A DNA stretch of 50,448 nt from Ruminococcus sp. (GTDB lineage Bacteria > Bacillota > Clostridia > Oscillospirales > Ruminococcaceae). The stretch's first letter is position 1, and the number at the start of each line of letters is the position of its first letter. Location of the stretch: positions 1 through 50,448 of the forward strand of contig SVNX01000018.1 in assembly GCA_015066665.1 (NCBI GenBank), in the 5' to 3' direction. The notes below the pieces were generated by a model that did no database searches, was not told the DNA's origin, and saw nothing but the letters and a program-made list of their open reading frames with translations. Positions 23,936 to 38,188 of the stretch are shown here, in pieces. The position numbers were made by a program, and so were the translations under genes.

Positions 23936-24814
23936 CTATTTCTCTGTGAGAATGCCATAGCGGTCGGGACGTCTGTCACGGAAAATACCCCAGCTGAGAC
24001 GATCGGCAGCAAGTGCATCCAGATCGAATGCAGCAGCCAGCACATCATCTCCCTCCCTCGCGGACTGGCAAACGAGTGCGCCGGTATTGTCAGCAATGAA
24101 GGATGAGCCATAGAACCGGAGAGAGGAGCTCTGTCCGCCGTTCTCCGTACAGGGCTGCACTTCCTCGAGACCATAGCGGTTGGCAGCGATCACGGGCATG
24201 AGATTTGCTGCTGCATGGCCCTGCATACAGCGTGTCCAGTGGGGCATGCTGTCGGTTTCAAGAATCGGCTCGGAACCGATGGCGGTCGGATAGAAAAGCA
24301 GCTCCGCACCATTGAGTGCAAAGGCTCTTGCCGTCTCAGGGAACCACTGATCCCAGCAGATGCCGACACCGATCTTGGCATATTTCGTATCAAACACCCT
24401 GAATCCCGTATCACCGGGGATGAAGTAGAATTTCTCCTGGTAGTAGTGATCGTCCGGAATATGGGTCTTGCGGTAGATACCAAGCATTGCGCCGTCCGCA
24501 TCAAGCACTGCCACGGAATTGAACAGGCGGTTGCCGTCCTTCTCGTAAAAACTGATGGGCAGAACCACACCGAGTTCTGCGGCCAGCTTTGCAAAATGCT
24601 GTACTGCATCATTTTCCTCTGCCGGCTTTGCAAACTGATAATATTCATACTGCCGTTCCTGACAGAAGTACTGCCGCTCGAACAGCTCCGGCAGGAGAAT
24701 GATATTTGCGCCGTTTTCAGCCGCTTCACGGACAAGAGCGTCCGCACGGGCGATATTTTCCTGTACATTCCGTGTGCAGGACATCTGCACAGCGGCGACG
24801 GTTACTTTTCTCAT
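23936..24814 (-). CDS. aguB: N-carbamoylputrescine amidase, 292 aa
   Basis: Carbon-nitrogen hydrolase of the nitrilase superfamily that turns N-carbamoylputrescine into putrescine, CO2 and ammonia. The Glu-Lys-Cys triad is visible: Glu43 in LLPELF, Lys116 in YRKTHIPD and Cys153 in GVGICWDQWFPE. The DDHYYQEKFYFIPGDTGF segment is typical of AguB rather than other amidases. AGGAG precedes the ATG. It follows agmatine deiminase by 122 nt, a gap filled with two G+C-rich hairpins, and completes the agmatine-to-putrescine route of this operon. Confidence 0.93.
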   Translation of the reverse strand: MRKVTVAAVQMSCTRNVQENIARADALVREAAENGANIILLPELFERQYFCQERQYEYYQFAKPAEENDAVQHFAKLAAELGVVLPISFYEKDGNRLFNSVAVLDADGAMLGIYRKTHIPDDHYYQEKFYFIPGDTGFRVFDTKYAKIGVGICWDQWFPETARAFALNGAELLFYPTAIGSEPILETDSMPHWTRCMQGHAAANLMPVIAANRYGLEEVQPCTENGGQSSSLRFYGSSFIADNTGALVCQSAREGDDVLAAAFDLDALAADRLSWGIFRDRRPDRYGILTEK

Positions 24815-24936: not shown

Positions 24937-26049
24937 TTAAGCATTCCTTGGTATCTGCTGTGTAATACAATGGATATTCCCGCCGCCGACAATGATTTCC
25001 CTTGCGGGGATCCTCACGATGGTGCGTTCCGGAAAAAGCTTTCCCAGAATGGCGGCGGCTCTTTCGTCGCTCTCTGCATTCTCACCGCCGAACTGCGGCA
25101 GGAGAATCGCATGATTGCAGATGTAGAAATTCACATAGGATGCCGCCAGACGTTCGCCGACCTCACGGGTATCCTCGCCCTCCTCGAACTCGTAGCCGTC
25201 CATATCGGATGCTTCCACGCAGACGGGCACATCCGGAATGGGAAGCTTGTGCACGGTGAAGGCTCTGCCCTTTGCATCGGTCTCTGTTTTCAGCACTTCC
25301 ATACATGCCGTAGAAAGCGCATACTGCGGATCATCTTTCTGATCCGTCCATGCAAGCACCACTTCCGCAGGCTTCACAAATGCGCAGACATTATCCACAT
25401 GTTCATTGGTTTCATCATTGTAAATGCCGCGGGGCAGCCAGATGACTTTTTCCGCACCGAGGTAGTGCTTCAGCGTATCGGTGATCTGTTCCTTTGTCAT
25501 ATGGGGATTGCGTCCGGGGCTGAGCAGGCAGCTTTCGGTGACGAGAACCGTCCCCTCGCCGTCGGAATGGATCGAACCGCCCTCCAGCACAAAATGCTGT
25601 GCATCATAGCAGTCCAGACCGATGCTTTCGCAAAATCGGCAAGCAAGCGCGTTGTCCTCCTCCCAATGGGCATAGAGTCCGTCGAACTCTCCGCCCCATG
25701 CATTGAACTGCCAGTCGATACCACGCAGCTCTCCCCTATCATTCACGACAAAGGTCGGGGCGGTATCCCTTGCCCAAGCATCATTCTGGGGGATGGTGAG
25801 AAGATGGATGCGTGTATCGCCGGAAAGCAATTCTTCCGCACGGGTACGCTGTGCCTCGCTCACAAGGACATAGACGGTTTCGGATTTTGCGATTTCACGG
25901 ATAATGCAGCTGAAAATCTCCTGTGCCTTGGGGACATTGCTCCATGAGCCCCTGCGTTCGGGAAAAATCATGATCGTTCCATGATGGGGGGCATATTCTG
26001 CCGGCATATGGAATCCATCGGCTTTGGGGATGGTATGGAGCTTACTCAT
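24937..26049 (-). CDS. aguA: Agmatine deiminase, 370 aa
   Basis: Guanidino-group-modifying enzyme that hydrolyses agmatine to N-carbamoylputrescine and ammonia. Recognisable segments are [18 protein letters not shown] near the N-terminus, [13 protein letters not shown], the [17 protein letters not shown] strand and the C-terminal [13 protein letters not shown] motif with catalytic Cys361. Length is normal. Its ATG overlaps the stop of the carboxynorspermidine decarboxylase gene (ATGA), a sign of coupling. It could alternatively act on aminopropylagmatine if the pathway condenses agmatine before deimination; sequence cannot decide. Confidence 0.94.
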
Positions 26050-27164
26050 GACAATCTCTCCTTGAAATCAGAATAGCCGAATTTCTTGACCGTTTCATAG
26101 CTGCCGTCCGTGTGGAGGATGCCGATCTCGGGGAGGGGCATGCCGTTGAATGTATTGTTCTTGACCATCGAATAGATCGCCATATCCTCAAAACAGAGCC
26201 GATCACCAATTTTCAGCGGCTGATCGAAGCTGTAGTCCCCAATGATGTCACCTGCAAGGCAGGTGCAGGAGGACAGGCGGTAGGTATGGGCTTTCTCCCC
26301 TGCTTCGCCGCTTTCAAAAAGAGGCGGACGATAGGGCATTTCAAGGACATCGGGCATATGGCAGGCAGCGGATGCATCGAGAATGGCGATGTCCATGCCG
26401 TTTTCCACGATGTCCATAACCTCCGTCACGAGGTAGCCTGCACGCAGAGCGATGGCTTCGCCTGGTTCGAGGTAGACCTGCACATTATATTTTTTCTGGA
26501 ATTCCACAATCAGCTGTTCAAGCAGTGGAATATTATAATCGGGGCGTGTGATATGATGACCGCCGCCGAAATTCACCCATTTGCATTTGTGGAGATAGTC
26601 ACCGAATTTTTCCTCGACCGCTTTGAGCGTGATTTCAAGGGCATCGGCATTCTGTTCGCAGAGGGTATGGAAATGCAGTCCGTCCACATCGGGAAATGCT
26701 GTCAGATCACAGGCTCTCACGCCGAGACGGGATCCGACGGCGCAGGGATCATAGATGGCAGATTCCTGCGTGGAGCATTCGGGATTGATACGCAGACCGA
26801 TGCTCTTTCCGGCACTGCGGCACATACTGCCGAATTTCTCCAGCTGGCGCAGGGAATTGAACACGATATGATCGGAAACCGCCAGAATTTCGGGCATATC
26901 CGCATCCTTGTACGCAGGGGAAAAGATATGCACTTCGCCTTCGAATTCCTCCCGACCGAGCTTTGCTTCATACAGTCCGCTGGCGGTCGTACCGGAGAGG
27001 TATTTTGCGATCAGGGGATAGACAGAAAACATGGAGAATGCTTTCTGTGCAAGGAGAATTCTGCATCCGGTGCGTTCCTGCACGCCTTTGAGGATCTCCA
27101 GATTGGAAATAAGTTTTGCTTCATCCAGAATATAGGATGGGGTGGGAAATTGGTTCAGGTTCAT
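26046..27164 (-). CDS. nspC: Carboxynorspermidine/carboxyspermidine decarboxylase, 372 aa
   Basis: PLP enzyme of the alanine-racemase fold that decarboxylates carboxy(nor)spermidine to (nor)spermidine. Lys41 in [10 protein letters not shown] is the expected PLP lysine; the [22 protein letters not shown] and [14 protein letters not shown] segments and the [12 protein letters not shown] motif match this family and not diaminopimelate decarboxylase. It follows the dehydrogenase by 73 nt and overlaps aguA by 4 nt. Whether its substrate is carboxyspermidine or carboxyaminopropylagmatine is open, because both agmatine and putrescine can be made by this operon. Confidence 0.92.
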
Positions 27165-27237: not shown

Positions 27238-28491
27238 TTAATCCACGAGTACCGGATTCTCGTCAACCACCCACGGCAGACCGTACTTGTTCAGTGCATC
27301 CATGAACGGATCGGGATCGAATTCCTCCACATTGAACACACCGGCCTTTGCCCAGATGCCGCTTGCCACCAGAGAAGTACCGATCATTGCCGGAACACCT
27401 GTCGTGTAGGATACCGCCTGTGCACCGGTTTCCTTGAAGCATTCCTGATGGTCGCAGACATTATAGATATAGATAGTACGTTCCTTGCCGTCCTTGATAC
27501 CACGGAAGATACAGCCGATATTGGTCTTGCCAACAGTTCTCGGGCCGAGTGTGGACGGATCGGGGAGGAGCGCCTTGAGGAATTTGATCGGGACGATCTC
27601 ATGACCCTCAAATTCCACCGGTGTTGTGCCGAGCATACCGACATTCTGCAGACAGTTCATGTGCATCAGGTAGCTCTGACCGAATGTCATGAAGAAGCGG
27701 ATTCTCTTGACATTGGGGATATTCTTTGCGAGGGATTCGATTTCCTCATGATGCAGAAGGTACATATCCTTCATGCCCACGCCCTCGAAATTGTATTCAC
27801 GCTTGATTTCCATGGGCTTGGTTTCCACCCACTTGCCATCCTCCCAGTAAGAGCCGTTTGCAGAAACCTCACGGAGGTTGATTTCCGGATTGAAGTTCGT
27901 TGCAAAGGGATAGCCATGGTCACCGCCGTTGCAGTCGAGGATGTCAATGTAGTGAATTTCATCGAAGTAGTGCTTCTGTGCATATGCTGCAAAGACGCTG
28001 GTCACACCCGGATCGAAGCCGGAGCCGAGGAGTGCGGTCAGACCAGCATTCTGGAATTTCTCCTGATATGCCCACTGCCAGGAATAGTCAAAGTACGCAG
28101 TAAAGCCCTTTTCCTCGCATCTCTTCTCGTAGATGGCACGCCACTCGGGATCGTCAGTATCCTCTGCTTCGTAGTTTGCGGTATCCACATAATTTGCACC
28201 GCAGGCAAGGCAGGCATCCATGATGGTCAGATCCTGATACGGCAGAGCGACATTAAGGACGGTGTGGGGCTTGTATTCGTTCATGAGAGCAACGAGGGAA
28301 TCCACGCTGTCCGCATCCACCTGTGCAGTGGTGAGTACAGCATTTGTGGTCGGGCGGAGCTTCTCTGCGAGTGCATCGCACTTGGACTTGGTTCTGCTCG
28401 CAATGCAGATCTCGGTGAATACAGGGTTTGCACAACACTTGTGAATTGCAACGGTCGCAACACCGCCGCAGCCGATAACTAACAGTTTCAT
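27238..28491 (-). CDS. Carboxynorspermidine dehydrogenase (saccharopine dehydrogenase family), 417 aa
   Basis: NADPH-dependent enzyme that joins aspartate semialdehyde to an amine (putrescine or diaminopropane; agmatine in a related route) to give a carboxypolyamine. The N-terminal Rossmann motif is VIGCGGVATVAIHKC; YVDTANYE and LLGSGFDPGVTSVFAAYA are family segments. The ATG at 28491 has AAGGAGAATT upstream and starts the Rossmann strand; the longer open frame upstream only runs through a hairpin-filled gap. Together with nspC it forms the alternative spermidine pathway known in Vibrio, Campylobacter and many gut bacteria. Confidence 0.92.
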   Translation of the reverse strand: MKLLVIGCGGVATVAIHKCCANPVFTEICIASRTKSKCDALAEKLRPTTNAVLTTAQVDADSVDSLVALMNEYKPHTVLNVALPYQDLTIMDACLACGANYVDTANYEAEDTDDPEWRAIYEKRCEEKGFTAYFDYSWQWAYQEKFQNAGLTALLGSGFDPGVTSVFAAYAQKHYFDEIHYIDILDCNGGDHGYPFATNFNPEINLREVSANGSYWEDGKWVETKPMEIKREYNFEGVGMKDMYLLHHEEIESLAKNIPNVKRIRFFMTFGQSYLMHMNCLQNVGMLGTTPVEFEGHEIVPIKFLKALLPDPSTLGPRTVGKTNIGCIFRGIKDGKERTIYIYNVCDHQECFKETGAQAVSYTTGVPAMIGTSLVASGIWAKAGVFNVEEFDPDPFMDALNKYGLPWVVDENPVLVD

Positions 28492-28533
28492 AGGTAATTC
28501 TCCTTTTCGTAGTTGATTGTTTTGCGGTAACTG

Positions 28534-28732
28534 TATGGGGGACGCTGTCCCCCATACCCCCTGCCAAAGGGATGTAATCCCTTTGGAATCCCATAGCGTT
28601 TTCCAAATCGCCCCACAAGGGGGCAATTTGGAAAACCTTGCAATTGCAAGAAATGCATTCTTGGGCAGGTGTATGAGAACAGTGTTCCATACCGTATCGC
28701 AAACTATAAATATGAATGGGGAAATTCCCCAT
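28534..28732. repeat. Cluster of six hairpins between speE and the dehydrogenase gene
   Basis: Perfect or near-perfect inverted repeats follow one another: TATGGGGGAC/GTCCCCCATA (28534-28556), CCAAAGGGAT/ATCCCTTTGG (28564-28586), TTCCAAAT-GCCCC with its complement (28601-28633), CTTGCAATTGCAAG (28637-28650), GTATG-GAAC-GTTC-CATAC (28671-28692) and ATGGGGAAATTCCCCAT (28716-28732). No gene fits in the 251-nt gap. They may be accumulated intergenic elements or mRNA-processing structures within the operon. Confidence 0.7.
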
Positions 28733-28742
28733 AAATTGTTAT

Positions 28743-29654
28743 TTATTCGATTTCGTCGAAGCTTGCGTTCAATACTCTTCCCTCCGCTGGAAGCCTCCTG
28801 CGTTCCTCCGCTTCTTCCAGCAGATCCTCCACATACTTCGGGAGCATGAATGCGCCGGTGTGAAGATTGGTGGTATAGTACCATGTCTGCAAGCCCCTCG
28901 CTTTCCAGCGTGCGGCATCGAGATCATGGAGGGGATGGTATTTCTTGGACGCAAAGCCGAACAGCCAGTAGCCGGACGGACAGGTCGGGATGTGCGCCTG
29001 ATACACACGGCTGATCGGGAAACAGCGGAACGCCCTCCGGTGCATCGCCGTGCAGGCTTCCTCATCCTCATCGAAGAACGGGCTGCCGTGCTGGTACACC
29101 ATAATGCCGTCCTCCTTCAGAGCCTTGAAACAGCTGCCGTAGAATTCCTTCGTGAACAGTCCTGCCGTATGCCCGAAGGGATTTGTGCTGTCGTTGATGA
29201 TCAGATCATATTCATTCTCCTTGCGGCGCAGAAAGCGCAGACCGTCACGATAGAAGATATTGACACGTTCATCCTCCAGACCCTTTGCATTGTCGGGGAA
29301 AAATTCCTTGCAGACCTGAACAAAGAGTTCATCCGGTTCGACCACATCAATGGATTCGATCTCGTCATAATGGGAAAGCTCCCTCGCCACGCCGCCGTCA
29401 CCGCCGCCGATCACAAGGACTTTTTTCACATGGGGATGCACCGCCATCGGCACATGTACGATCATTTCATCATAAGTGAACTCGTCCTTCTCCGAGAAGA
29501 TCACACTGCCGTCCGATGTGACGAAACGCCCGAATTCCTCGGATTCAAACACATCGATCCGCTGGAAATCGCTCTCGCCCGTGAACAGCTGTTTTTCCAC
29601 TCGTATGGACATTTTCACGTTATTCGTATGCAGTTCTGAAAACCAGTAGTCCAT
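28743..29654 (-). CDS. speE: Spermidine synthase homologue (SpeE family), 303 aa
   Basis: Aminopropyltransferase fold: N-terminal beta domain with DEFTYDEMIVHVP, then a Rossmann methyltransferase-like domain with VIGGGDGGVARE (Asp86). The catalytic loop reads NDSTNPFGHTAGLF: Asp155 is kept, but the acidic residue three positions later (Asp or Glu in the spermidine synthases I recall) is Asn158, and the following Gly-Pro is Gly-His. No S-adenosylmethionine decarboxylase gene accompanies it, whereas the dehydrogenase/nspC route does. It may be an ordinary spermidine synthase with speD elsewhere, or a variant with another amine or donor. It lies 3 nt after speA, with an AGGGAG site. Confidence 0.87.
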   Translation of the reverse strand: MDYWFSELHTNNVKMSIRVEKQLFTGESDFQRIDVFESEEFGRFVTSDGSVIFSEKDEFTYDEMIVHVPMAVHPHVKKVLVIGGGDGGVARELSHYDEIESIDVVEPDELFVQVCKEFFPDNAKGLEDERVNIFYRDGLRFLRRKENEYDLIINDSTNPFGHTAGLFTKEFYGSCFKALKEDGIMVYQHGSPFFDEDEEACTAMHRRAFRCFPISRVYQAHIPTCPSGYWLFGFASKKYHPLHDLDAARWKARGLQTWYYTTNLHTGAFMLPKYVEDLLEEAEERRRLPAEGRVLNASFDEIE

Positions 29655-29657
29655 CTG

Positions 29658-31112
29658 TCACACTCCCTTCAACACATTCAGCTTCTCCAGATCAGGATCC
29701 TCCGGGCCCTGCATGGAGCAGCCCTTTTCCTTGGCATAGAGGATATATTCCACCAGCTCCGCTGTGATCATCTCGCCGGGGGCAAGGATCGGGATGCCGG
29801 GGGGATAGCACATAACAAATTCGCCGCAGATGCGTCCCGCCGTTTCACGGATCGGGATCATTTCCTTTTCAGAGTAGAATGCCTTCTGCGGCGTGATGGC
29901 AACGATCGGGGAAATATATTCCGCATTGTGCATGGTGGATTTGTCACGGGAATACAGACGCTTGATGTCCTCCAGTGCACCCACCAGACGTTCAATATCC
30001 TGAATGCGGTCGCCGATGGAGATATATGCCAGAATATTGCCGATATCGCCGAACTCAATCTGGATGTCGTATTCATCACGCAGAAGATCGTAGACCTCGA
30101 TGCCCGTAAGGCCAATGTCCCTCGTGTATACGGAGAGTTTTGTGACATCGTAATTATAAATGCTGCTGCCATTGACCAGATCCTTGCCATAGGCATAGAA
30201 GCCGCCGATGGAATTGATTTCCTCTCTTGCATATTCCGCCATACGGCTCACCTTTTCAAAGGATTCACGCCCACGCAGAGCAAGATTTCGCCTTGAAATA
30301 TCCAGACTCGACAACAGCAGATAGGATGCGCTGGTCGTCTGGGTGAGATTGATGATCTGTTCAACATAGCGCATATTCATGCTCTTTCCGAGAAGCAGGA
30401 GGGAGCTTTGTGTCAGGCTGCCGCCGGATTTATGCATGGAGACGGCCGCCATATCTGCACCGGCTTCCATCGCCGAAACGGGCAGTGCCTCATGGAAATA
30501 AAGGTGTGTGCCGTGTGCTTCATCCACAAGGGCGAGCATGCCGTGATCATGGGCGAGCTTGACGATCGAGCGAAGATCGGAGCAGATGCCGTAATAGGTT
30601 GGGTTATTGACAAAAATCGCCACAGCATCGGGATTTTCCTTGATGACACGTTCCACCTGCGAAATCTCCATACCCAGCGCAATGCCGATATGGCTGTCCA
30701 CATCGGGATTGACATAGACCGGCTCCGCACCGCAGAGGACAAGGGCATTGATGACGCTCTTGTGGACGTTGCGGGGAAGGATGATCTTATCCCCCGCCTT
30801 GCAGGCTGTGAGGATCATGGTCTGCACGGAGGACGTGGTCCCCCCCACCATGAAGAAGGCATGTGATGCACCGAAGGCATCCGCTGCGAGCTGTTCCGCC
30901 TCAAGAATGACAGAAACAGGGTGGCAGAGGTTGTCAAGCGGCTTCATGGAATTGACGTCGATGCCGACGCATTTCTCGCCCAGAAGCTGCACAAGCTCGG
31001 GGTTGCCGCGTCCTCGCTTATGGCCGGGGACATCGAACGGCACAACACGCTGTCTGCGGAAGCGTTCGAGTGCTTCATACACCGGCGCCGATTTTTGTTT
31101 TTCGATATTCAT
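29658..31112 (-). CDS. speA: Arginine decarboxylase, Orn/Lys/Arg decarboxylase family, 484 aa
   Basis: PLP-dependent decarboxylase of the short fold-type I form found in Firmicutes (Bacillus SpeA type, about 490 aa). Key residues: DVPGHKRGRG near the N-terminus, Asp197 in LALVDEAHGTH, and PLP lysine Lys228 in SMHKSGGSLTQ. The C-terminal domain holds PPGIPILAPGE. Downstream deiminase and amidase genes make arginine the likely substrate (agmatine as product), though lysine or ornithine decarboxylase activity cannot be excluded by eye. First gene of the polyamine operon; its leader carries an intrinsic terminator 19 nt before the ATG. Confidence 0.9.
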   Translation of the reverse strand: MNIEKQKSAPVYEALERFRRQRVVPFDVPGHKRGRGNPELVQLLGEKCVGIDVNSMKPLDNLCHPVSVILEAEQLAADAFGASHAFFMVGGTTSSVQTMILTACKAGDKIILPRNVHKSVINALVLCGAEPVYVNPDVDSHIGIALGMEISQVERVIKENPDAVAIFVNNPTYYGICSDLRSIVKLAHDHGMLALVDEAHGTHLYFHEALPVSAMEAGADMAAVSMHKSGGSLTQSSLLLLGKSMNMRYVEQIINLTQTTSASYLLLSSLDISRRNLALRGRESFEKVSRMAEYAREEINSIGGFYAYGKDLVNGSSIYNYDVTKLSVYTRDIGLTGIEVYDLLRDEYDIQIEFGDIGNILAYISIGDRIQDIERLVGALEDIKRLYSRDKSTMHNAEYISPIVAITPQKAFYSEKEMIPIRETAGRICGEFVMCYPPGIPILAPGEMITAELVEYILYAKEKGCSMQGPEDPDLEKLNVLKGV

Positions 31113-31426
31113 AGTCTTTTCCTCGTCTGATAAAATAAAAAAAGCAGCTGATGGATACCATCACCTGCCTTGGCAATTACAACGCAAAATCCGAGAATTC
31201 CGCCGTTTTTGTTGGATACTGCTGCGCATTGCCGCCTCTTATTGACCGTTTCACAAGTGATGTTGATTATAAAGTTATCATCTTATAAAATTTGGGCTTT
31301 GAACCCAATCAATAATGCAGCATGCCGCTGCGCTCGGCAATCCGACCCGCCTGTCCGTATGGGCATATCTTTCCGTCTGCTGCGGAAAGCGGTCGTGTGC
31401 GTAAGCTGTATCGCTTTAGTACGCTA
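31113..31426 (-). ncRNA. Structured 5' leader of the polyamine operon (candidate riboswitch/attenuator)
   Basis: From the predicted start (about 31426) to the speA ATG the RNA is about 314 nt and holds no gene. Helices seen on the minus strand, in order: GCGTA/TACGC; GACCGC/GCGGGTC enclosing CTTTCCG/CGGAAAG; GCCG/CGGC; TTGATT/AATCAA enclosing TTGGG/CCCAA and TTATAAG/CTTTATAA (a possible three-way junction); GGCAAT/ATTGCC enclosing GCGCA/TGCGT and ATCC/GGAT; then the terminator. CATCACTTG (31262-31254) can pair over 9 bp, one of them G-U, with CAGGTGATG (31167-31159), the terminator's 5' arm, giving a ready antiterminator. It matches no riboswitch class that I can recognise. Confidence 0.6.
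31131..31168 (-). terminator. Intrinsic terminator in the speA leader
   Basis: On the minus strand GCAGGTGATGG (31168-31158), a 3-nt loop and CCATCAGCTGC (31154-31144) form an 11-bp stem with one mismatch, followed by seven T and further T-rich sequence. It ends 19 nt before the speA start codon and after the promoter, so it must be regulated or leaky for the operon to be expressed. Confidence 0.8.
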
Positions 31427-31432
31427 TATTGT

Positions 31433-31461
31433 ATTGTAGCATATTTTTTGTCGTTTGTCAA
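31433..31461 (-). promoter_or_regulatory. Promoter of the polyamine operon
   Basis: Minus-strand TTGACA (31461-31456), 17-nt spacer, TACAAT (31438-31433): near-consensus sigma-70. No other promoter of this quality lies between it and speA, which supports a long leader. Confidence 0.78.
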
Positions 31462-31544
31462 TTGGTTTTTGAAAAATCCCTCTAAAAATGCGGATACAAG
31501 TAAAAAAGGCTTGGGGAAGTCCGGGCAAACTCCCCTCCCCCTGC

Positions 31545-31714
31545 CCCCCTCCCAGAGGGAGGGGGATGAGAGAGGGGGCTGCCGCCCCCTCAAACCCGCC
31601 CTCTTGCAGAGGGCTTTTCATGGGGGAAATGCGGTGTAGAAGGATTGGGGAAACCCTGCAGTACTCACCCCACAAAGGGAGCGCGAAAGAAGGGCTGCCC
31701 TCTTGCAGAGGGAT
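31545..31714. repeat. G+C-rich hairpin repeats upstream of the polyamine promoter
   Basis: CCCCCTCCC/GGGAGGGGG (31545-31565), AGGGGGC/GCCCCCT (31573-31590), GCCCTC-TTGCA-GAGGGC (31598-31614), and a second GCCCTC-TTGCA-GAGGG at 31697-31712. The first two resemble the aguA-aguB pair. Apart from these and the promoter, 31462-31738 shows no gene. Confidence 0.6.
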
Positions 31715-31738
31715 GTTTTCATAAGAGTGAGGGGATAT

Positions 31739-36808: not shown

Positions 36809-38188
36809 ATGCAGGACAAAACCACAGAGCTTTTCCGGAGCGCATCCGTCCCGCGCGCTGTCATCAGTAATATCATCCCCTCCATCATCAGCATGCTCAT
36901 GGTGCTGCTGTACAATCTGGCGGATACCTACTTCATCGGTCAGACCAAGGATGCCTTCAAGGTTGCGGCCGTTTCCGTAGCAACACCGGCGTTTCTGATC
37001 TTCATGGCCGTGGGCATGCTCTTCGGCATCGGCGGCACATCTCTGATCTCCCGTACCCTGGGCAAGGGCGATCACGAGAAGGCAAAGTGCATCTCTTCCT
37101 TCTGCTTCTGGACGGGACTCGTCTGCGGCATTCTGTCCATGGCGGGCATCTGGATTTTTTCACGCCCCATCTGCCTGCTCATTGGTGCAAGTGCGGACAC
37201 ACTCGACTATACAATGCAGTATCTGAACATCGTGAGTCTTTCCATCCCCTTCCTGATCGTCAGCAACAGCTTCAGCCACATCATCCGCTCCGAGGGCCGT
37301 GCAAAGACCGCCATGGCGGGCATGATCATCGGCAATCTCATCAACATTGTCTTTGACCCCATCTTGATCCTCTGGTTTGACTGGGGCGTTGCGGGCGCAG
37401 CAGTTGCAACCGTTCTGGGAAATCTGTTCTCCGCTGTGTTCTACCTGTCGCATCTGCTCTCCAAAAAATCCATGCTCTCCATACGGCCCCGTGACTACCG
37501 GATCGGAAACGGCATTGCCACGGGCGTACTCGCCATCGGCATTCCCGCCTCCCTCAACAGCATTCTCATGAGTGTTTCGAACATTGTCATCAACAATTTC
37601 ATGGGTGATCACGGCGACATGGCCGTGGCGGGACTTGGCGTTGCCATGAAGGTGAACATGATCGTGGTGATGCTGCTGATCGGTCTTGGCAGCGGCATTC
37701 AGCCCCTGCTCGGCTACTGCTTCGGCGCACGGAATAAGGAGCGCTACATGGCCGTGCTGAAGTTCTCACTCTGCCTTGCATTCGGGCTGAGTGCTGTGAT
37801 GACAGTCATCTGCTACGCATTCGCAGGCCCCCTGGTCACGGCCTTCCTCGATGACCAGAACGCCTATGATTTCAGCATGTCCTTTGCCCGCATCTACATC
37901 TATTCCGGCCCCGTGATCGGCATTCTCTTTGTGATGATCAATGCCATTCAGTCCACGGGTGCAGCACTCCCCTCACTGATCCTGTCCATCAGCCGTCAGG
38001 GCATTCTGTACATCCCGATTCTGCTGATCTTCAACAGCTTCCACACGCCCCGCATGCTGGCGATGGCGCAGCCCACCACGGATTATCTGGCCGCTGCACT
38101 CGCCTGTGTGCTCTTTGCCATCACCATCCGGAAATATTTCCGAAGTCCCGAATTTGCAAATCCTACACCGAAAAACGAAACGGCATGA
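36809..38188 (+). CDS. MATE-family efflux transporter, 459 aa
   Basis: Twelve-helix exporter of the MepA-like branch. Helix 1 (AVISNIIPSIISMLMVLLYN) leads into the ADTYFIGQT-type motif; the second half repeats it near residue 240 (IGIPASLNSILMSVSNIVIN). KGDHEKAKCISS and YCFGARNKERY are conserved MATE loops. The gene has AAGGAG 8 nt before its ATG, its own promoter and terminator, and so is a single-gene unit. Substrate unknown. Confidence 0.9.
   Translation: MQDKTTELFRSASVPRAVISNIIPSIISMLMVLLYNLADTYFIGQTKDAFKVAAVSVATPAFLIFMAVGMLFGIGGTSLISRTLGKGDHEKAKCISSFCFWTGLVCGILSMAGIWIFSRPICLLIGASADTLDYTMQYLNIVSLSIPFLIVSNSFSHIIRSEGRAKTAMAGMIIGNLINIVFDPILILWFDWGVAGAAVATVLGNLFSAVFYLSHLLSKKSMLSIRPRDYRIGNGIATGVLAIGIPASLNSILMSVSNIVINNFMGDHGDMAVAGLGVAMKVNMIVVMLLIGLGSGIQPLLGYCFGARNKERYMAVLKFSLCLAFGLSAVMTVICYAFAGPLVTAFLDDQNAYDFSMSFARIYIYSGPVIGILFVMINAIQSTGAALPSLILSISRQGILYIPILLIFNSFHTPRMLAMAQPTTDYLAAALACVLFAITIRKYFRSPEFANPTPKNETA

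Follow-up and report, generated by a model that had tools for sequence, protein, structure and literature searches.

The leader RNA in front of the polyamine operon in this 50,448-nucleotide stretch of Ruminococcus sp. DNA (the window) probably acts in cis as an OFF switch of transcription and would most likely be a polyamine-binding riboswitch, with spermidine as the best candidate ligand. Our computational analysis reveals an RNA family with covarying helices, a conserved terminator and antiterminator, and an association with polyamine genes. If this reading is true, it explains how polyamine supply is set in many Bacillota, including gut commensals.

Operon, promoter and folds in the window

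Six codirectional genes follow the leader on the minus strand, from 31112 down to 23936: speA, speE, a carboxy(nor)spermidine synthase gene, nspC, aguA and aguB (Table 1). The SpeA protein of the window has its nearest counterpart among the fetched loci in L130, from an uncultured rumen 'Ruminiclostridium'. Between speE and the carboxynorspermidine synthase gene (28530-28700) lies a dispersed repeat that contains several palindromes and has 29 matches in the same genome, including itself.

The preliminary description of this DNA had proposed a near-consensus promoter, a structured leader, a terminator before speA and an antiterminator option, and this observation as a whole is confirmed. A scan of 1.5 kb gave five promoter-like sites against 1.2 expected; this promoter is the best of them, and its position would place the start site near 31426. 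From the promoter, a leader of about 314 nt extends to the intrinsic terminator directly before speA. The 315-nt sequence reaches a minimum free energy (MFE) of -94.6 kcal/mol, more stable than expected from 100 shuffles (z -2.73), and the opposite strand over a roughly equal stretch is similarly stable (z -2.75), so that fold energy alone does not settle the choice of strand. Upstream of the promoter, G+C-rich inverted repeats with terminator-like stems occupy 31500-31720, where sub-threshold microRNA matches also occur.

The 9-bp antiterminator suggested earlier, in which CATCACTTG (31262-31254) pairs with CAGGTGATG (31167-31159), is stronger than chance and recurs in relatives. In the window it amounts to -15.0 kcal/mol with 10 contiguous pairs, against a mean of -4.5 kcal/mol for other downstream stretches. 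A fold that combines P2, P4 and P6 with the terminator has -92.8 kcal/mol, compared with the MFE given above. The antiterminator fold (-83.1 kcal/mol) lies 11.5 kcal/mol above the MFE and would therefore have to form kinetically while the RNA is being transcribed; on these modelled energies, the choice between the two folds is presumably co-transcriptional and kinetic.

Table 1. Features of the leader and the polyamine operon in the window
Feature	Position	Strand	Details
Promoter	31433..31461	-	-35 TTGACA, 17-nt spacer, -10 TACAAT, TG-extended; 11/12 matches
P2 domain (three-way junction), RF02440 part	31334..31395	-	52.6 bits
P2 5' strand GACC	31391..31394	-	pairs with GGTC 31347-31344; covariation in relatives
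Conserved P2b loop CATACGGACA(G)	31351..31361	-	closed by GCC/GGC in window, GGC/GCC in most relatives
P3 hairpin GCAGC/GCTGC	31317..31331	-	relatives have a hairpin at the corresponding place
P4 5' strand TTATTGA	31309..31315	-	partner TCAATAA 31245-31239
P5 hairpin TTGGG/CCCAA	31292..31308	-	P5 covaries in A1
P6 5' strand ATAAG	31282..31286	-	aptamer partner of CTTGT 31257-31253
P2-P6 core segments			AUUUUAUAAG, CUUGUGAAACGG
3' domain	31192..31315	-	R1 match; P7 part: 30-nt stretch against 17 model positions, little identity
Switching strand CATCACTTG	31254..31262	-	overlaps P6 in one fold; antiterminator with CAGGTGATG in the other
Intrinsic terminator	31137..31171	-	stem about 31171-31141, U run to 31137; 5' arm contains CAGGTGATG 31167-31159
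speA, Orn/Lys/Arg decarboxylase	29658..31112	-	PF01276 231.3 bits
speE, spermidine synthase	28743..29654	-	TIGR00417 278.6 bits
Carboxy(nor)spermidine synthase/dehydrogenase	27238..28500, start approximate	-	Sacchrp_dh domains; NF043000 394.4 bits, below cut-off 800
nspC, carboxynorspermidine decarboxylase	26046..27164	-	TIGR01047 492 bits
aguA, agmatine deiminase	24937..26049	-	TIGR03380 470.8 bits
aguB, N-carbamoylputrescine amidase	23936..24814	-	TIGR03381 444.1 bits

Relatives and conserved structure

Relatives of the leader were gathered without use of the genes, through searches with the Rfam family RF02440, 'Streptococcus sRNA SpF59 (ldcC RNA)', which matches the window at 31395-31334 over its full model 1-54 (52.6 bits, gathering score 37.2), and with a 19-base pattern. 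RF02440 matched in 38 of 148 same-family genomes, 18 of 398 genomes of the phylum and 28 of 348 genomes in the class of genome G213. The pattern occurred in named genomes in at least 118 stretches, 80 of them among the matches listed, and relatives found by this exact pattern are biased toward its sequence. The resulting loci, L001-L233, span several Bacillota families and single MAGs labelled Spirochaetes and Synergistaceae; our parser read 187 of the 233, which gave 151 distinct and 106 non-redundant leaders. A match in Actinomyces oris (L110) was rejected as chance, since the remaining elements of the RNA are missing there, the nearest frame belongs to no Pfam family, and the downstream sequence shows nothing beyond weak, generic similarity to ABC ATPases. 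Locus L039 carries a second, unrelated CATACGGACAG.

R1, a covariance model for the region that follows P3, was built from 25 sequences, the window not among them, and matches the window once, at 31315-31192 beside the RF02440 match (66.8 bits, E 2.3e-11); P4-P6 with UUAUUGA/UCAAUAA and AUAAG/CUUGU are present in it. R1 also matches 41 of 148 same-family genomes and 48 of 391 genomes of the class. Both models match in 35 same-family genomes, at least 9 of which supplied sequences to R1, and in 35/35 the two matches lie on one strand and at most 40 nt apart. R1 alone was found in six same-family genomes and RF02440 alone in three (G035, G075, G101).

In the relatives the 5' part has the conserved order GACC - P2a - GGC CAUACGGACA GCC - GGGUC - UGCCGA - P3 - UUAUUGA - P5, and the 3' part continues with AAUUUUAUAAG - P6a - P6b - ACUUGUGAAACGGUCAAUAA GAGU..GUAAAAGU..UUGC..ACUCU. 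Conservation thus reaches far past the RF02440 model, which is 54 nt long and covers the P2 domain only, through P3-P7, a pseudoknot and mostly the terminator; the Rfam model is one domain of an RNA of about 240 nt.

Covariation was assessed in two alignments, each taken from 33 preselected sequences after those of odd length or doubtful parsing had been dropped by eye. The alignment of the P2 domain (A2, 30 sequences) has 93.2% of its cells paired, 51 doubly changed against 15.9 in shuffles, and a covariation score of 0.315, compared with at most 0.090 when slid; among the parsed leaders, some P2b mismatches are an artefact of the parser's fixed loop boundary. In the 3' domain (A1, 25 sequences), 95.7% of cells are paired and the score is 0.081, whereas sliding gives no more than 0.055. 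None of 500 shuffles scored as high in either alignment. A2 strongly supports the three-way junction P2/P2a/P2b that the preliminary description had thought possible. A weaker measure, the number of double-change pairs, was equalled in 9 of 500 shuffles for A2; for A1 it gave 5, and a slide by -3 left this number unchanged. Complementarity with little covariation is seen in P4 and P6, which hardly vary.

When 94 relatives were scanned blindly for mutual information, helix pairs took ranks 1-4 and eight of the top 14 places; we read the other six, with at most 44% canonical pairs, as clade signal. RNAalifold drew P2, P2a, P4, P5, P6b and P7 from the same alignment; P3 and P6 are absent from its drawing and CGG/CCG stands in place of P2b, which counts against our model there. 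Among 2120 shuffles, hairpins at least as stable as the native ones arose 90 times for P2a, 55 for P3, 64 for P5 and 214 for P6a/b. Divergent members keep pairing with altered sequence when inspected by eye: GGCC/GGCC for P2 in L232, GACUUC/GAAGUC in L173, and in L111 GUGUUGA/UCGACAU for P4 and GAGC/GCUC for P7. The pseudoknot joins a GCAnAUA strand 5' of P2 to the P7 loop UAUUUGC; in 91 sequences the partners have a mean of -8.2 kcal/mol, against -6.2 when swapped and -6.96 for the lowest of 2000 permutations, a comparison that ignores kinship.

Leader anatomy does not discriminate between a small ligand and a protein, and some attenuators do use proteins, so a terminator-coupled attenuator sensed by an RNA-binding protein or other macromolecule, with no direct ligand, has to be weighed. 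Protein sites on RNA are usually short, whereas 88 positions of this RNA (66 in A1, 22 in A2) show 90% identity or more; they are distributed through loops and junctions and kept across several Bacillota families and the Spirochaetes and Synergistaceae MAGs. We therefore consider a protein sensor distinctly improbable and infer direct binding of a ligand.

Lineages differ at the edges of the riboswitch candidate. R1 aligns GAG with CUC for P7 in the window across a diverged interior; the usual interior, AGUAAAAGU..UUGCUA, is absent in the window, L146 and L130, and the window, L130, L146, L167 and L168 all keep P2-P6 while missing it. The window copy appears to be a subtype that has diverged in its P7 region. 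Seven of the 59 parsed R1 loci lack the P2-domain loop CGGAC. These, L234, L223, L229, L231, L238, L255 and L260, have the 3' domain without the loop, the whole P2 domain seems absent in L234, and they are possible subtypes with a changed ligand. The shared core of the RNA is P3-P6. Evenly balanced, in our judgement, is the broader proposal of a widespread, modular spermidine riboswitch class of about 240 nt, present in Rfam as a 54-nt 'sRNA', in which P3-P6 would be the core and the P2 junction and P7 pseudoknot peripheral elements lost or remodelled in some lineages; subtypes may differ in ligand specificity, and the window would represent a remodelled P7.

Terminator and antiterminator among relatives

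Switch counts refer to 105 of the 106 non-redundant leaders, one having no room, and supersede those from 149 loci with duplicates. An intrinsic terminator occurs in 81 of the 105 relatives, compared with 43 of 525 shuffled sequences. Under the rule used it is absent in 24, including 6 of 9 CANSDH leaders, which may have other expression platforms.

In one of the folds, ACUUGUG pairs with AUAAGU to close P6. The pairing of ACUUGUG with the terminator 5' arm has a median of -13.9 kcal/mol, against -5.0 for other stretches and -7.2 for shuffled arms, and in 74 of 81 leaders the strand pairs better with this arm than with 95% or more of the alternative stretches downstream. Strands and arms of the same leader also fit each other better than permuted partners (means of -13.4 and -11.1 kcal/mol; 0 of 5000 permutations as low, kinship ignored); permutation within the class of first gene (3000 rounds) gave a mean of -11.5 and a lowest value of -12.3 kcal/mol. 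The partners of the antiterminator covary: the window and L167 have CAUCACUUG/CAGGUGAUG, and L197 has, by eye, UCAUCUUG/CAGGAUGA. Because the ACUUGUG strand is common to the aptamer helix and the antiterminator, the two folds exclude each other, and this exclusion of sensor helix and expression platform is conserved across species, apart from the 24 relatives, among 105, that show no terminator under the rule used.

The OFF switch could work as follows. With ligand in excess, the aptamer fold would be stabilised and CUUGU would close P6 with AUAAG; the terminator would then be free to form, and transcription would end before speA. With ligand scarce, CAUCACUUG would capture the terminator 5' arm CAGGUGAUG, and the polyamine operon would be transcribed.

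Translation-coupled attenuation by a leader peptide is scarcely credible as an explanation of this anatomy. ATGCCG stands at the conserved junction in 31 of 106 leaders, and 36 contain one or more small ORFs of 8 or more codons whose start codon is accompanied by a Shine-Dalgarno-like sequence; however, 63 of 106 have CTGCCG at that junction and 70 of 106 contain no such small ORF, and we disfavour the mechanism on these grounds.

Downstream genes, reported RNAs and candidate ligand

The first recognised gene behind the leader was taken to be the nearest hit to any of seven query proteins in the 2.3 kb downstream, with unrecognised ORFs possible in between; it is a polyamine gene in every distinct parsed leader that has room for one. 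Among the 151 distinct leaders it is speA in 50, speD in 44, the carboxyspermidine dehydrogenase gene (CANSDH) in 42 and potA in 13; two loci are too short and none is without. The 46 loci that the parser did not read have speD (25), potA (9, one of them L110), speA (3) or CANSDH (1), five are too short, L233 lacks the anchor and has speD, and L172 and L173 have no polyamine gene. R1 loci, which overlap with the main set, have a polyamine gene downstream in 80 of 80 looked at (59 + 5 + 16). Representative products are a SAM decarboxylase in L003 (TIGR03331, 393.2 bits) and a spermidine/putrescine ABC ATPase in L034 (NF043075, 567.4 bits).

These settings bear on the earlier record of the RNA. 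Rfam types RF02440 as 'Gene; sRNA', and the accessible pneumococcal literature reports the transcript as F59, SN20 or srn235, so that a trans-acting small RNA would be the received explanation. We think it very unlikely: all 149 distinct parsed leaders that have room are followed on the same strand by a polyamine gene, and the terminators (81/105) and their paired leader strands (74/81, above 95% of stretches) argue for a regulator in cis. The genomic setting of RF02440 is that of a cis-acting leader, and a full-length model is warranted. According to the accessible text of the sources, SN20 of S. pneumoniae is a 318-nt transcript between SP0915 and SP0916, placed directly before SP0916; F59 is listed at 82 nt; the 2010 authors of SN20 pointed to a motif in common with FMN switches and suggested that it might be one; and a 2025 conservation study keeps srn235/F59/Spd_sr49 among the sRNAs. 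The 318 nt of SN20 would be the length expected of a terminated leader, and the pneumococcal sRNA is most simply read as one; if our reading is true, it would be the product of termination by a switch. The name 'ldcC RNA' in Rfam suggests that the gene had been noticed before.

The RNA is therefore not undescribed, as had been claimed, since its 54-nt piece is already RF02440 and the pneumococcal transcript is on record in the accessible literature. The rest of the earlier riboswitch or attenuator reading stands, with terminator-coupled exclusive folds, covarying helices and no known riboswitch class. We found no description of the RNA as a riboswitch in the accessible open-access literature, although other work may exist, and the main text of a 50-genome motif paper, as far as accessible, makes no mention of polyamines, decarboxylases, speA or potA.

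Leaders of the lysine, T-box, glycine, guanidine and manganese families likewise join a sensor to an intrinsic terminator. None of these families reached its gathering score on the window, and a sub-threshold manganese match at 31506-31600 lies outside the leader. The Rfam scan that the preliminary description had proposed returned no riboswitch family at gathering score in the window, in keeping with its statement that hallmarks of T-box, SAM-I, lysine, guanidine and glycine RNAs are missing, but it did return RF02440. In seven relatives, only RF02440, 5S rRNA, tRNA and Bacillaceae-1 appeared at the gathering threshold.

The one validated polyamine riboswitch that we found in the accessible literature is a SAM-I variant, modelled on 13 representatives, that acts as a spermidine OFF switch; its authors call it rare and expect further classes (PMC10853860, accessible text). 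Both RNAs are associated with polyamine genes, and that class is an OFF switch with terminator and antiterminator (PMC10853860, accessible text). The window leader would operate in a similar way but is no member of that class, since it has no SAM-I aptamer match (none up to E 10 in 31000-31600). The leader RNA is distinct from this rare class and much commoner, standing before speA, speD, carboxyspermidine dehydrogenase and potA. The speF, odc1 and potE motifs are likewise RNAs upstream of polyamine genes, described in the accessible sources from alphaproteobacteria (speF, odc1) and Veillonella (potE); the speF model has no match in the window leader, and odc1 and potE are set apart from it by their described hosts only.

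Genes for synthesis and for uptake occur together behind this RNA, from which we infer an OFF switch for the end product. The common denominator of speD, potA, speA/speE and CANSDH/nspC we take to be mainly the supply of spermidine-type triamines, and a triamine as the common product of speD and CANSDH points to spermidine as the ligand. The window operon presumably also makes agmatine and putrescine, which would suit a cis riboswitch for putrescine, agmatine, cadaverine or another polyamine other than spermidine; we regard such a ligand as unlikely, given that mainly triamine supply is shared among the downstream genes. Of the ligands that had been thought reasonable earlier, a polyamine remains so from the genes, and arginine, agmatine and SAM are less favoured than spermidine.

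Two further arrangements were seen. L172 (514-588, 39.8 bits) and L173 (505-558, 34.9 bits), from two genera, are low-scoring RF02440 relatives upstream of C39-peptidase-like genes; the downstream genes are, by eye, putative lipoproteins, and these RNAs could be a variant with another role. On the minus strand of contig C99 in genome G1165, two R1 matches about 220 nt apart (37496-37562 and 37779-37892, L286) precede a potA-like gene, a possible tandem.
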